The notes beneath the pieces were generated by a model, which was not told the DNA's origin, made no database searches, and was given only the letters and a program-made list of their open reading frames with translations. Made by a program: the position numbers and the translations under genes. A stretch of 64,000 bases of DNA from NCBI GenBank assembly GCA_944322585.1, contig CALUPB010000006.1:62001-126000 (forward strand), written 5' to 3'. Positions 22,418 to 60,161 of the stretch are shown here, in pieces. Position 1 is the first letter of the stretch. Every line of letters starts with the position of its first letter. This DNA comes from an uncultured Bacteroidales bacterium. Its GTDB lineage: Bacteria > Bacteroidota > Bacteroidia > Bacteroidales > UBA932.

Positions 22418-23707
22418 CTATTCTACATAGAGAAGAAGCCCTTTCAGATACTCCCCTTCCGGATGATAGATATTGACTGCATGGTCGGCAGGCTGGTTGA
22501 GACGGTCCAGGATACGGACGCTTCTCCGGCATTGCGCCGCTGCAGAAAATACCGCAAGAGCGAAAGCCTCCTTGTCTACGACCTGCGAACAGCTGAACGT
22601 AAAGACCAATCCTCCCGGAGCCACCTTGGATATTGCCGCTGCATTCAGTCTCTGATAGGCCCGCAATGCATTGTTCAATGCACCCCGATGTTTTGCAAAT
22701 GCCGGAGGATCGACAACCATAAGGTCGTATTTCCCTTCCGGAACGGCTTTGAGATAATCCATGGCATCACAGCATAGAGACGTGTGCTGCCCGTCGGAAA
22801 ACCCGTTTAGCGCCACATTCCTGTCTACAAGCGCCATAGCCTTCCTCGAACTGTCCACCGAATCCACATGTACTGCTCCTCCTGCTAAAGCATAGATTGA
22901 GAAACCACCCGTATAACAGAATAAATTCAGCACATTACGACCTTGTGCATACTTTTGGACAAGAGCCCTGTTCTCACGCTGGTCAAGAAAGAAACCGGTT
23001 TTCTGCCCCTCTGTCCAGTCGACCAGGAATTTGTGGCCGTTCTCCATGACGGTATATCCGTTCCCGTCGAAACCGTCCCTGCGATAAACATAACCGTCGA
23101 CAGGATTCAGACCGGCCTTGAACGGAACAGTAGCAGAACTTTTGTCATATACGGCTTTGAGCGCGGGTCCATACACATGCTGCAAGGCCTCGCAGATCAG
23201 CTTCCTTGACCGGAACATGCCTGCGGAATGGGCCTGCATGACACACACTCCGTCATAGTAGTCTATAATCAGACCGGGCAGGTTGTCCCCTTCCCCATGC
23301 ACGAGACGGTAACAGTCCGTCCCTCTCAGGCTGCCTGTCCCTGACTCTGCGCAGGCTTTTTGTCCAGGATCAAGCCCGGATTCGGCGCAGACGGCTTGTC
23401 CTGGCTCATACCCGGCTTCCGGACGACTGGCAAGACCTGCTGCAACGCGTACCTGCAGGGCGCGGGCCACCATGACTTTCCAGTAATCCCTGTCATTCAC
23501 ATTCCCGTCAAAGCTCAATATCCTGACAGCTATGGAACCTATCTGATAATGTCCGGCAGCCAGGAAGGTCCCGTCACTGGAATAGACACCGACTACGTCC
23601 CCTTCCGCCGGATTTCCCTGAATTTCGGCCACGGCTCCGGAAAACACCCATGGATGAAAACGTTTCAGAGACTCTTCCCTGCCCTTGCGCAATATTACCT
23701 TTATCAT
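22418..23707 (-). CDS. RlmI/RlmK-like 23S rRNA cytosine-5 methyltransferase
   Basis: 429 residues. An N-terminal PUA domain (about 1-75, with HPWVFSGAV) precedes a Rossmann methyltransferase. SAM-binding NLFCYTGGFSIYAL lies near 262, and the catalytic-type motifs are VVDPPAFAKH near 331 and TFSCSQ near 370. An insert at about 96-128 between the domains contains two 12-residue tandem units (PGQAVCAESGLD / PGQKACAESGTG). I do not expect this insert in typical homologues. The start codon lies 9 nt after the structured repeat at 23711-23809, which forms its leader. Confidence 0.88.
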   Translation of the reverse strand: MIKVILRKGREESLKRFHPWVFSGAVAEIQGNPAEGDVVGVYSSDGTFLAAGHYQIGSIAVRILSFDGNVNDRDYWKVMVARALQVRVAAGLASRPEAGYEPGQAVCAESGLDPGQKACAESGTGSLRGTDCYRLVHGEGDNLPGLIIDYYDGVCVMQAHSAGMFRSRKLICEALQHVYGPALKAVYDKSSATVPFKAGLNPVDGYVYRRDGFDGNGYTVMENGHKFLVDWTEGQKTGFFLDQRENRALVQKYAQGRNVLNLFCYTGGFSIYALAGGAVHVDSVDSSRKAMALVDRNVALNGFSDGQHTSLCCDAMDYLKAVPEGKYDLMVVDPPAFAKHRGALNNALRAYQRLNAAAISKVAPGGLVFTFSCSQVVDKEAFALAVFSAAAQCRRSVRILDRLNQPADHAVNIYHPEGEYLKGLLLYVE

Positions 23708-23710
23708 ACA

Positions 23711-23809
23711 TTACTCAAGTTTCGCAAGTTCATAATTATACTGATATCCGTGGATTTGCGCGGGTTGCGAAACTTTTTCCCACCGCACGGTCACTGTCCA
23801 CGTTACCTC
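23711..23809 (-). promoter_or_regulatory. Structured leader repeat, copy B (before the RlmI-like gene)
   Basis: Read on the minus strand it runs from GAGGTAACGTGG to CTTGCGAAACTTGAG and closely matches copy A at 43866-43960. Possible pairings are CGTGG with CCACG, GTGCGG with CCGCGC, and the loop sequence AAGTTTCGCAA with TTGCGAAACTT just before the start codon, a pseudoknot arrangement. In copy A the second stem is GTGCGGC/GCCGCAC, so the T-A pair there is T-G here. Candidate cis-acting RNA element; it is not one I recognise. Confidence 0.55.
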
Positions 23810-43767: not shown

Positions 43768-43783
43768 CATCAATATGACTTGA

Positions 43784-43801
43784 CTTTCGCAAATGCGAAA
43801 G
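43784..43801. repeat. Hairpin repeat CTTTCGC-AAAT-GCGAAAG, copy 2
   Basis: Begins 16 nt after the surE stop, followed by ACCTT as in the copy after the nitroreductase gene. The stem extends to 8 bp here (CTTTCGCA/TGCGAAAG). Confidence 0.6.
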
Positions 43802-43865
43802 ACCTTATATTGGAGACCGACAGGTCGACAGCAAGTCCCCTCTCCGAGAGAGGGGGTTTGGGGGA

Positions 43866-43960
43866 GAGGTAACGTGGACAGAGACTGTGCGGCGGGAAAA
43901 AGTTTCGCAAGCCGCACAAAGCCACGGATACCAATACAATTACGGACTTGCGAAACTTGA
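43866..43960 (+). promoter_or_regulatory. Structured leader repeat, copy A (before lpxB)
   Basis: About 95 nt ending 4 nt before the lpxB ATG. Possible pairings: CGTGG (43873-43877) with CCACG (43922-43926); GTGCGGC (43887-43893) with GCCGCAC (43911-43917); and AAGTTTCGCAAG (43900-43911) with CTTGCGAAACTT (43947-43958). The third pair links the hairpin loop to the sequence beside the start codon. A C-rich hairpin (CCCCTCTC-CGA-GAGAGGGG) lies just upstream near 43837. Copy B precedes the RlmI-like gene. Confidence 0.6.
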
Positions 43961-43964
43961 GAAT

Positions 43965-45272
43965 ATGAAATATTATATCATAGCGGGAGAAGCGTCGGGA
44001 GACCTGCACGGGTCTAACCTGATGCGCGGGCTATATGCCAGGGACACCGAGGCCGAAATCCGTTTCTGGGGAGGCGACCTGATGAATTCCGTATATCTGG
44101 ACAATGAAAAACCTGCGGAGAATGCAGCCATGACAGTAAATGCCTCTGCATCGCATGACATCCCGGCAGAGGAAGAAGGCAATCGCAATGGATACAATCC
44201 GTCCGGAACATGCAGCAGGGACAGGTTCGGCGGGTTGGTACAGCATTACAGGGAAGGGGCGGTAATGGGTTTCTGGGAAGTGGTGCGCAAAGGAGGCAGG
44301 CTTCTCGGGAATGTCGGCAGATGCAAACGGGACATACTCGGACATCGTCCGGATGCCGTCATTCTCATAGACTATCCCGGCTTCAATTTCAGGATTGCCG
44401 AATTTGCACACAGACACGGTCTGAAGGTGTTCTATTACATAGCTCCGAAAGTGTGGGCATCCCGCGAAGGAAGGATAAGGAAACTCAAAGCGTATGTAGA
44501 CAAGCTGTTCATCGTATTCCCTTTCGAAATACCTTATTTCCGGGAAAAGGGAGTCGATTTCATATACAGGGGCAATCCGCTCGTAGATGCCGTGGACAAT
44601 TCCGCGGCGATGAAAGAAAGCAGGGGGGATTTTCTCAAACGGAATTCATTGGAAGACAAGCCTGTCATAGCCATGCTGGCCGGCTCGCGCAAACCGGAAA
44701 TCTCCGGTATGATGCCGGTGCTGACAGAATTCGCGCGGAAAATGCATGCCCTGCCGCAATATTCGGACTGGCAGTTTCTTATTGCCGGAGCGCCTGCCCG
44801 TTCGATGGAAGACTACGAGCCATGGCTCAATCCGTCGGAGGATTATATAAAGGTGCTTTTCGGAGAGACACAGTCCATTATCCGGCATTCGGAAGCGGCA
44901 GTGGTCAATTCAGGGACCGCTTCACTCGAAACCGTACTGTTCAACGTGCCACAGGTGGTAGGCTACAGGATGAACAGGCTCACCTATATCATCGGGAAGC
45001 ATATCATCAGGGTAAAATACATCAGTCTCGGGAATCTGTGCATAGACCGCCTTGCATTCAGGGAACTCATCCAGGATGACTGCAATGCCGGCGCGATTCT
45101 CAAGGAAGTCCGTGCACTGCTTGAAGACAGGCAGTACAGAAAACGCATGCTTGAGGACTATGCCGGAATACGCCGTCTTCTCGGAGGTACAGGAGCCTCG
45201 TATGCCGTCGCTGAGGCCATGGTGTCACTTCTCTCGGATAAAGAAGATGGCCTCATCGGAAGACTTCGCTGA
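43965..45272 (+). CDS. lpxB: Lipid-A-disaccharide synthase
   Basis: 435 residues from the ATG at 43965 (MKYYIIAGEASGDLHG). Condenses UDP-2,3-diacylglucosamine with lipid X in lipid A synthesis at the inner membrane face. Motifs: AGEASGDLHGSNL at the N-terminus, VMGFWEVVR, YYIAPKVWASREGR and VNSGTASLETVLFNVP. A hydrophilic insert at about 42-90 separates the first strand pair from GLVQHYREGAVMGFWEV and is not part of typical LpxB. Its last 20 nt overlap the end of the convergent lpdA gene. Confidence 0.93.
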   Translation: MKYYIIAGEASGDLHGSNLMRGLYARDTEAEIRFWGGDLMNSVYLDNEKPAENAAMTVNASASHDIPAEEEGNRNGYNPSGTCSRDRFGGLVQHYREGAVMGFWEVVRKGGRLLGNVGRCKRDILGHRPDAVILIDYPGFNFRIAEFAHRHGLKVFYYIAPKVWASREGRIRKLKAYVDKLFIVFPFEIPYFREKGVDFIYRGNPLVDAVDNSAAMKESRGDFLKRNSLEDKPVIAMLAGSRKPEISGMMPVLTEFARKMHALPQYSDWQFLIAGAPARSMEDYEPWLNPSEDYIKVLFGETQSIIRHSEAAVVNSGTASLETVLFNVPQVVGYRMNRLTYIIGKHIIRVKYISLGNLCIDRLAFRELIQDDCNAGAILKEVRALLEDRQYRKRMLEDYAGIRRLLGGTGASYAVAEAMVSLLSDKEDGLIGRLR

Positions 45273-59951: not shown

Positions 59952-59987
59952 TATGCAAGGGGTGCGCACAGTATGCGCATGAGAAAT

Positions 59988-60121
59988 CTGCTTCCCTACG
60001 CCGGTATTGGCCGGATCAGGTTCAATGGGACTCTCTCAACTCCGTCCTGAAATCCATGCCGCCGGATTTTTCCCGATAACCGGAACCGCCATGCATGTCT
60101 TTCCACGGAGTACCCCCGCAA
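59988..60121 (-). promoter_or_regulatory. TPP riboswitch (THI element)
   Basis: On the minus strand: GGGGGTACTCC at the 5' side, an extended P3 arm, GGAGTTGAGAGAGTCCC, TTGAACCTGATC, then CCGGCCAATACCGGCGTAGGGAAGC. The CUGAUC and GGGAAGC signatures and the UUGAGA core match the thiamine pyrophosphate aptamer. It ends about 36 nt before the receptor start, so translational control is likely; a separate terminator hairpin is not obvious. Confidence 0.95.
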
Positions 60122-60161
60122 TATTTTATTCAAACGATCCGCTCCCTTCCGGAAGCGCGTG

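Follow-up and report, generated by a model that had tools for sequence, protein, structure and literature searches.

Why do two near-identical stretches of DNA stand directly in front of two unlike genes of the same genome? The window analysed here, 64,000 nucleotides from an uncultured Bacteroidales bacterium, had been noted in a preliminary description to carry a leader of about 95 nt twice, on opposite strands and ending near start codons; it was put forward as an undescribed cis-regulatory RNA whose loop could pair with bases beside the start codon, with a mobile palindromic DNA element as the alternative. Both leaders are present. They are 89% identical over their matched part (blastn, E = 1.5e-29), so the resemblance is not due to chance, and copy 1 ends 6 nt before the start codon of an rlmI-like gene (23707-23705), copy 2 ends 3 nt before that of lpxB (43965). 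The unit of about 95 nt is real in both, but in copy 2 it is only the right half of a full element (43779-43961), with the following features.

22418..23707, minus strand: rlmI-like methyltransferase gene downstream of copy 1 (Pfam PF10672 and PF17785; PUA and Methyltrans_SAM)
23714..23808, minus strand: copy 1, the right module, 5'-truncated, upstream of the rlmI-like gene
23714..23727, minus strand: right terminal inverted repeat TTGCGAAACTTGAG of copy 1
43772..43778, plus strand: left target-site duplication AATATGA of copy 2
43779..43961, plus strand: copy 2, full-length element, between surE and lpxB
43784..43801, plus strand: P1, left terminal hairpin CTTTCGCAAATGCGAAAG of copy 2
43815..43826, plus strand: P2, putative hairpin GACC/GGTC of copy 2, from the alignment; by eye, it has different letters in further species
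43836..43845, plus strand: pyrimidine strand Y of P3 (TCCCCTCTCC), copy 2
43848..43856, plus strand: purine strand R1 of P3 (GAGAGGGGG), copy 2
43860..43869, plus strand: strand R2 (GGGGGAGAGG), a mirror copy of R1 and putative third strand, copy 2
43873..43926, plus strand: P4 of copy 2, CGTGG/CCACG and GTGCGG/CCGCAC, with loop AAGTTTCGCAA (43900-43910)
43948..43961, plus strand: right terminal inverted repeat TTGCGAAACTTGAG of copy 2
43962..43968, plus strand: right target-site duplication AATATGA of copy 2, containing the lpxB start codon (43965-43967)
43965..45272, plus strand: lpxB, downstream gene of copy 2 (Pfam PF02684)

Copy 2 matches positions 1-180 of a full-length model (R2) with E = 5.2e-34, being itself one of the 33 copies, from nine genomes, that make up the model; P1-P3 were not seen in the flank of copy 1 beyond 23808.

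Both copies belong to a dispersed family. Within the own genome, blastn returned 23 matches, 12 of which cover at least 69 of the 111 query bases, and a sequence-only core model (R1) built from 18 own-genome copies gave 51 matches at E<=10, 36 of them at E<1e-3. A blastn search of 40 relatives (24 of the same genus) gave no match, and core model R1 found the family in 18 of the 200 genus genomes searched, the own genome included, five of the others having 9 to 25 matches each among the matches listed. The families in those other genomes have a sequence of their own and are near-uniform within a species. The nearest named lpxB loci are from Candidatus Cryptobacteroides and uncultured Bacteroidales, and full-length model R2 matched 112 of 400 genomes of Ca. 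Cryptobacteroides (own included); in 295 genomes of the order, covering 183 genera, it matched the own genome and none of the 294 others, a sample that includes one genome of the same genus. In the samples searched, the element family is thus restricted to one genus. Since several draft-genome contigs end in or near a copy (L143, L257, L263, L265 and other loci), the true copy numbers are probably higher than those counted. Rfam returned no family over the two copies at the gathering score and, in seven loci searched up to E = 1, only tRNAs and sub-threshold matches; elsewhere in the window (59975-60127, minus strand) a TPP riboswitch aptamer scores 56.1 bits, just above its gathering score of 54.3. 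Plasmid and phage records held nothing matching a full copy, and no description of the family turned up among the open PMC papers listed.

Full copies are mostly about 182 nt long, or about 241 nt where P3 carries an extra domain, and have terminal inverted repeats at both ends (end sequences TTTAAGTTTCGCA / TGCGAAACTTGAG), the left end reading TTAAG/TTGAC-TTTCGCA and also CTTGAC/TTTAAG-TTTCGCA. The extra domain of the longer variants is branched (L152, L154, L157, L140, L120, L414, L426), and similar stretches such as AGTCCAGCGGACTTTTGCAGCGAGCAGC recur in it in several species. Perfect 7/7 target duplications flank 30 of 53 distinct full copies, and a further 11 have 6/7, where mispaired flanks give 0.5% and 5.5% respectively; in a second set, 23 of 59 copies have 6 or 7 of 7 bases duplicated (null 3%). 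Judged by eye, the duplication is 7 bp in some copies and 8 in others. Empty sites were found at both loci by comparison between species: among the 41 of 80 lpxB loci inspected for element-free junctions, the surE-lpxB gap without the element measures 45, 40 and 14 nt (L171, L172 and L173), and core model R1 gave one weak 23-nt match in the 60 of these 80 loci to which it was applied, while five rlmI-like orthologues lack the element, an exonuclease-like coding sequence reaching, by eye, near the start. Two shorter derivatives, a 63-nt form that corresponds to the right module and a 28-nt hairpin joining both terminal repeats via a short loop (L290-L331), would fit deletion between internal repeats of the element; in 11 of 14 rows the 28-nt forms lie between duplications that match at 7 or 8 of 8 bases, and if mobile themselves these forms would be very small units. 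Together, the target duplications, the element-free sites in relatives and the species-own families make MITE-like mobile DNA, and not a mere palindrome, a well-supported description of the element, so that what had been raised as the alternative is borne out.

The same observations bear on a riboswitch-like cis-regulatory RNA that spread by descent and in which loop-arm pairing hides or shows the start codon. Location before start codons, sense orientation and covarying helices are what such a class would have, and matches are not scattered without stem covariation, being mostly sense-oriented before start codons, with two helices that covary across species. Against this stand the target duplications, which contradict spread by descent, the absence of the element at the orthologous loci read in relatives, the restriction to one genus, and downstream genes (lpxB, rlmI-like and others) that are unlike each other and have no evident common function. 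The proposed pairing exists, AAGTTTCGCAA in the loop (43900-43910) being complementary to TTGCGAAACTT (43948-43958), but the arm is the element's terminal inverted repeat, and the complementarity is therefore no evidence of start-codon masking: loop and arm are both copies of terminal repeats that hardly vary, and 6 of the 11 pairs never do. The masking geometry thus lacks support and a riboswitch of this kind is very improbable, whereas the idea of an undescribed RNA acting in cis keeps real support.

This support comes in part from placement. Gene strands were called with a codon model trained on the window, which was right in 135 of 146 windows of that training region; longest-ORF calls were spoilt by shadow ORFs and were set aside. 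For 124 copies from 14 genomes, a set mixing full and partial copies, the downstream side gave 88 sense, 11 antisense and 25 unclear, and both neighbours together 47 sense and 1 antisense, the single antisense case being a short tail-only copy. The 54 full-length copies gave 34 sense, 3 antisense and 17 unclear downstream (both neighbours: 17 sense, 0 antisense), and a second set of 59 distinct copies found with full-length model R2, 52 of them from genomes not previously used, gave 44, 6 and 9 (both neighbours: 21 sense, 2 antisense). The 28-nt forms, counted by distinct flanks in three genomes, differ from the full copies with 4 sense and 8 antisense (Fisher p 1.4e-4); since they lack the sense bias, the bias seems to belong to the interior of the element, with only 12 copies in the 28-nt class.

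The most upstream in-frame ATG lies a median of 9 nt past the element (within 30 nt in 78 of 88 cases). On the other side, where 27 cases could be measured, the stop codon of the upstream gene ends 5 nt short of TTAAG in 10 of them. TAnnTTTG is the −7 promoter motif of Bacteroidetes. Of the 26 copies that lack a clear codirectional gene on the left, 13 have it within 80 nt upstream, and of the 28 copies that have such a gene none does; the 40 nt following the element contain it in 1 of 54 copies, as does a mostly coding control stretch (1/54). The distances to ATG and stop codons and the position of the motif thus place the long copies in what should be a transcribed leader. A promoter inside the element is not favoured: the sigma-70-like match of copy 2 overlaps the coding start, and TAnnTTTG occurs within 3 of 54 copies.

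A pure selfish MITE, with structure and repeats that serve transposition only and antisense copies lost through polarity or a terminator effect, would account for the terminal repeats and target duplications, for families that are near-uniform within a species and for copies upstream of many unlike genes. It would also predict that copies upstream of the promoter are the most harmless, yet the motif precedes the element in 13 cases and follows it in one (80- and 40-nt windows respectively). Nor does copy 2 show the expected terminator: no terminator-like site was found on its antisense strand, and on the sense strand only one, at the left terminal hairpin with its T-rich tail. We consider pure selfishness unlikely, also in view of the conservation described below.

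The stems reported for the two leaders are real, with CGTGG (43873-43877) facing CCACG (43922-43926) and GTGCGG (43887-43892) facing CCGCAC (43912-43917) in copy 2, and so is the change from T-A to T-G, copy 1 having GTGCGG/CCGCGC. Covariation differs by helix. Among 12 own-genome copies, the P4 stems have 2 double-change pairs against 1.4 in shuffles, and their covariation score is reached by 139 of 500 shuffles; inspection by eye of 33 constrained folds nevertheless shows P4, in differing letters, in all but one of them. Across species, two other helices covary. In the 33 copies, 99.2% of P1 and P3 cells are paired (shuffles 92.2%), 60 cells are double changes (shuffles 18.6) and the covariation score is 0.272 (shuffles 0.138), values reached in 0 of 500 shuffles each, and two of the five measures are weak, with 7 double-change pairs against 5.1 (16/500 shuffles) and 15 further pair types against 15.8 (487/500). 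Wobble cells number 37 G-T against 3 A-C in P3, 31 of the 37 coming from one conserved wobble, and 4 against 0 in P1, and this excess of G-T means that the sense strand fits the fold better. RNA folding of copy 2 is strong on both strands (z −5.9 sense, −5.3 antisense), so that folding energy alone does not pick the strand. The core, consisting of P2, P3 with strand R2, GTAACG and P4, appears to fold on the sense strand and to be under selection.

The order of strands in and behind P3 is Y, R1, a short T spacer and strand R2, the mirror image of R1, as in genome G281 (TCCTCTCTCC ... GAGAGAGGA TTT AGGAGAGAGG). In 21 hand-listed types, at positions 4-9, G stands opposite 64 of the 69 C of strand Y, and A or T opposite 54 of its 57 T; T of strand R2 never stands opposite C at these positions, and does so five times over all ten. 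The code also fits 180 of 198 positions in 33 types that come from 17 species outside the discovery set (shuffle mean 133, max 155; 0/10000), and 95 of 102 when each species contributes a single type (shuffle mean 71), where the shuffles take no account of relatedness between species. Class II purine-motif intrastrand triplexes consist of a pyrimidine, a purine and a reverse-Hoogsteen strand, with triplets GGC and A(T)AT, as outlined in the cited part of PMC4666352. Both the strand order and these triplets are found here, and P3 with strand R2 is probably a triple helix, judging from the letters of the three strands. A G-quadruplex in its place would not explain why A and T of strand R2 follow T of Y, and antiparallel pairing of Y with R2 is no better than shuffles and poor in register controls. 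Two points count against the triplex. In the long variants R1 is short and strand R2 still tracks Y, for which a triplex would need gene conversion or another partner. RNA strands are, to our knowledge, not accommodated in triplexes of the purine motif, and it may thus be exposed sense DNA, instead of RNA, that is under the constraint. At one lpxB locus (L207), a different long leader within 230 nt before the gene, with a duplicated stretch, contains the same kind of Y-R1-TTT-R2 module (AAGTCCCTTCCCTGGGGGAAGGGATTTAGGGATGGGTC), and such triplex-like modules may occur in more than one element.

Exposed DNA also features in another account of the orientation bias, in which insertion is directed to transcribed DNA, for instance to an exposed non-template strand, and the bias reflects targeting instead of selection. 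Copies between promoter motif and start, a fold and wobbles that fit mainly the sense strand, and a triplex layout that is the sense strand's are all in keeping with it, but the 28-nt forms, with the same ends and their own duplications, lack the bias (they may be later deletion products), and we regard targeting as a rather improbable source of it.

No transposase or autonomous copy was found in partial searches. Exact 10-mer end positions in two genomes (G075, G125) showed no autonomous partner with the same ends, and 19 loose inverted end pairs turned up in the loci examined. REP/REPIN elements are linked to RAYT transposases. Three of six family-carrying genomes have nine Y1 transposase genes between them and the other three showed none; a motif scan of all nine loci (flanks of six read) gave no paired element ends, and a RAYT/Y1 enzyme was set aside as the partner. 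A lone left-end-like TTGACTTTCGCAA lies at L162:407 (G000:C2), near a Y1-transposase-like gene at a contig end. A reverse transcriptase, present in one of the six genomes with no paired element ends beside it, was likewise rejected.

Shared loci are rare among the copies compared across species, which is what a mobile element would show and a regulatory class would not: nine pairs from different genomes have similar downstream sequence. One is identical throughout. In three, the elements are 97-99% identical (172/174, 171/173, 177/182) and the flanks 80-86%, and in two of these three each genome has a single full-length model R2 match at E<=1e-4, which makes copying between family members unlikely. 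Single orthologous copies that are 99% identical are more conserved than expected of the relic that a purely selfish element would leave. On the left side, conservation stops abruptly in L425/L427 and less so in the other two; in L123/L254 and, less, in L423/L424 high identity extends into the flanks, so recombination could explain these. A fourth pair has 87% in the element against 85% and 81%, and in the four most distant pairs the element (0.40-0.63) exceeds the downstream flank (0.54-0.73) in one.

Taken together, we favour, at a probability of roughly 0.7, a mobile leader that is retained in sense orientation and acts in cis on the transcript, benign or useful to its host. A transposase acting in trans would insert the non-autonomous element into AT-rich targets of 7-8 bp (roughly T-W-A-N-T-N-A), which are seen duplicated around the copies. 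The copies lie at stop-start junctions in operons, or downstream of a promoter motif and ahead of the first gene, and are retained mostly in sense orientation. They would presumably be transcribed as intercistronic or 5' leaders and could serve as structured spacers, shielding the expression of the following gene or setting its level; badly placed copies would be lost, or collapse to the 28-nt hairpin through deletion between internal repeats. We tentatively suggest a bolder version, which we hold to be possible and clearly the less likely: a genus-wide jumping cis-regulatory module, whose natural triple-helix core is selected on all three strands, works only with the sense strand exposed by transcription, and has been fixed in front of individual genes and become useful there.

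Short repeats in bacteria are commonly regarded as inert, or as a mild disturbance. Here, mobility goes together with a placement before genes that strongly favours the sense orientation and, at a few loci, with an element better conserved than its flanks, a combination that makes the spread of a regulatory leader by transposition directly testable. Natural intrastrand triple helices would gain evolutionary support from the three-strand covariation seen in species not used for discovery; in the account given in PMC4666352, they are supported by counts of motifs, spectroscopy in vitro, footprinting and the comparison of genomes.

Among known systems, ERIC, Correia/NEMIS, BOX/RUP and YPAL are short non-coding MITEs, most with terminal repeats and target duplications, and they are intergenic, some lying also in coding regions, with co-transcription possible (PMC2229807, PMC3049150, in the sections drawn on here). 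The Cryptobacteroides element resembles them in being short, non-coding and intergenic, with terminal repeats and target duplications. How ERIC affects transcripts and how boxB affects expression depends on orientation according to these sections; near-exclusive sense orientation sets the present element apart from the MITEs as described there, as does its three-strand structure, which the sections do not mention. Pneumococcal BOX, RUP and SPRITE are over-represented between convergent genes and the present element is not (PMC2229807, PMC3049150). MITEs are also reported from P. gingivalis, another Bacteroidales genome (PMC4596501). Short palindromic repeats dispersed outside genes are shared with REP/REPIN (as portrayed in parts of PMC3733652 and PMC3116915), from which the element differs in having target duplications, in the three of six carrier genomes without a Y1 gene and in the lack of paired ends by the nine Y1 genes of the others. 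The closest parallel to P3 and strand R2 is offered by the TM/TMECO and PIT elements, with their class II layout and triplets GGC and A(T)AT (Holder 2015, PMC4666352). As far as the cited portion of that paper goes, TMECO has one highly conserved sequence, is always intergenic without strand bias and is not found with high-mobility elements, whereas here the three strands change together, the strand bias is strong and the triplex module lies inside a mobile element.
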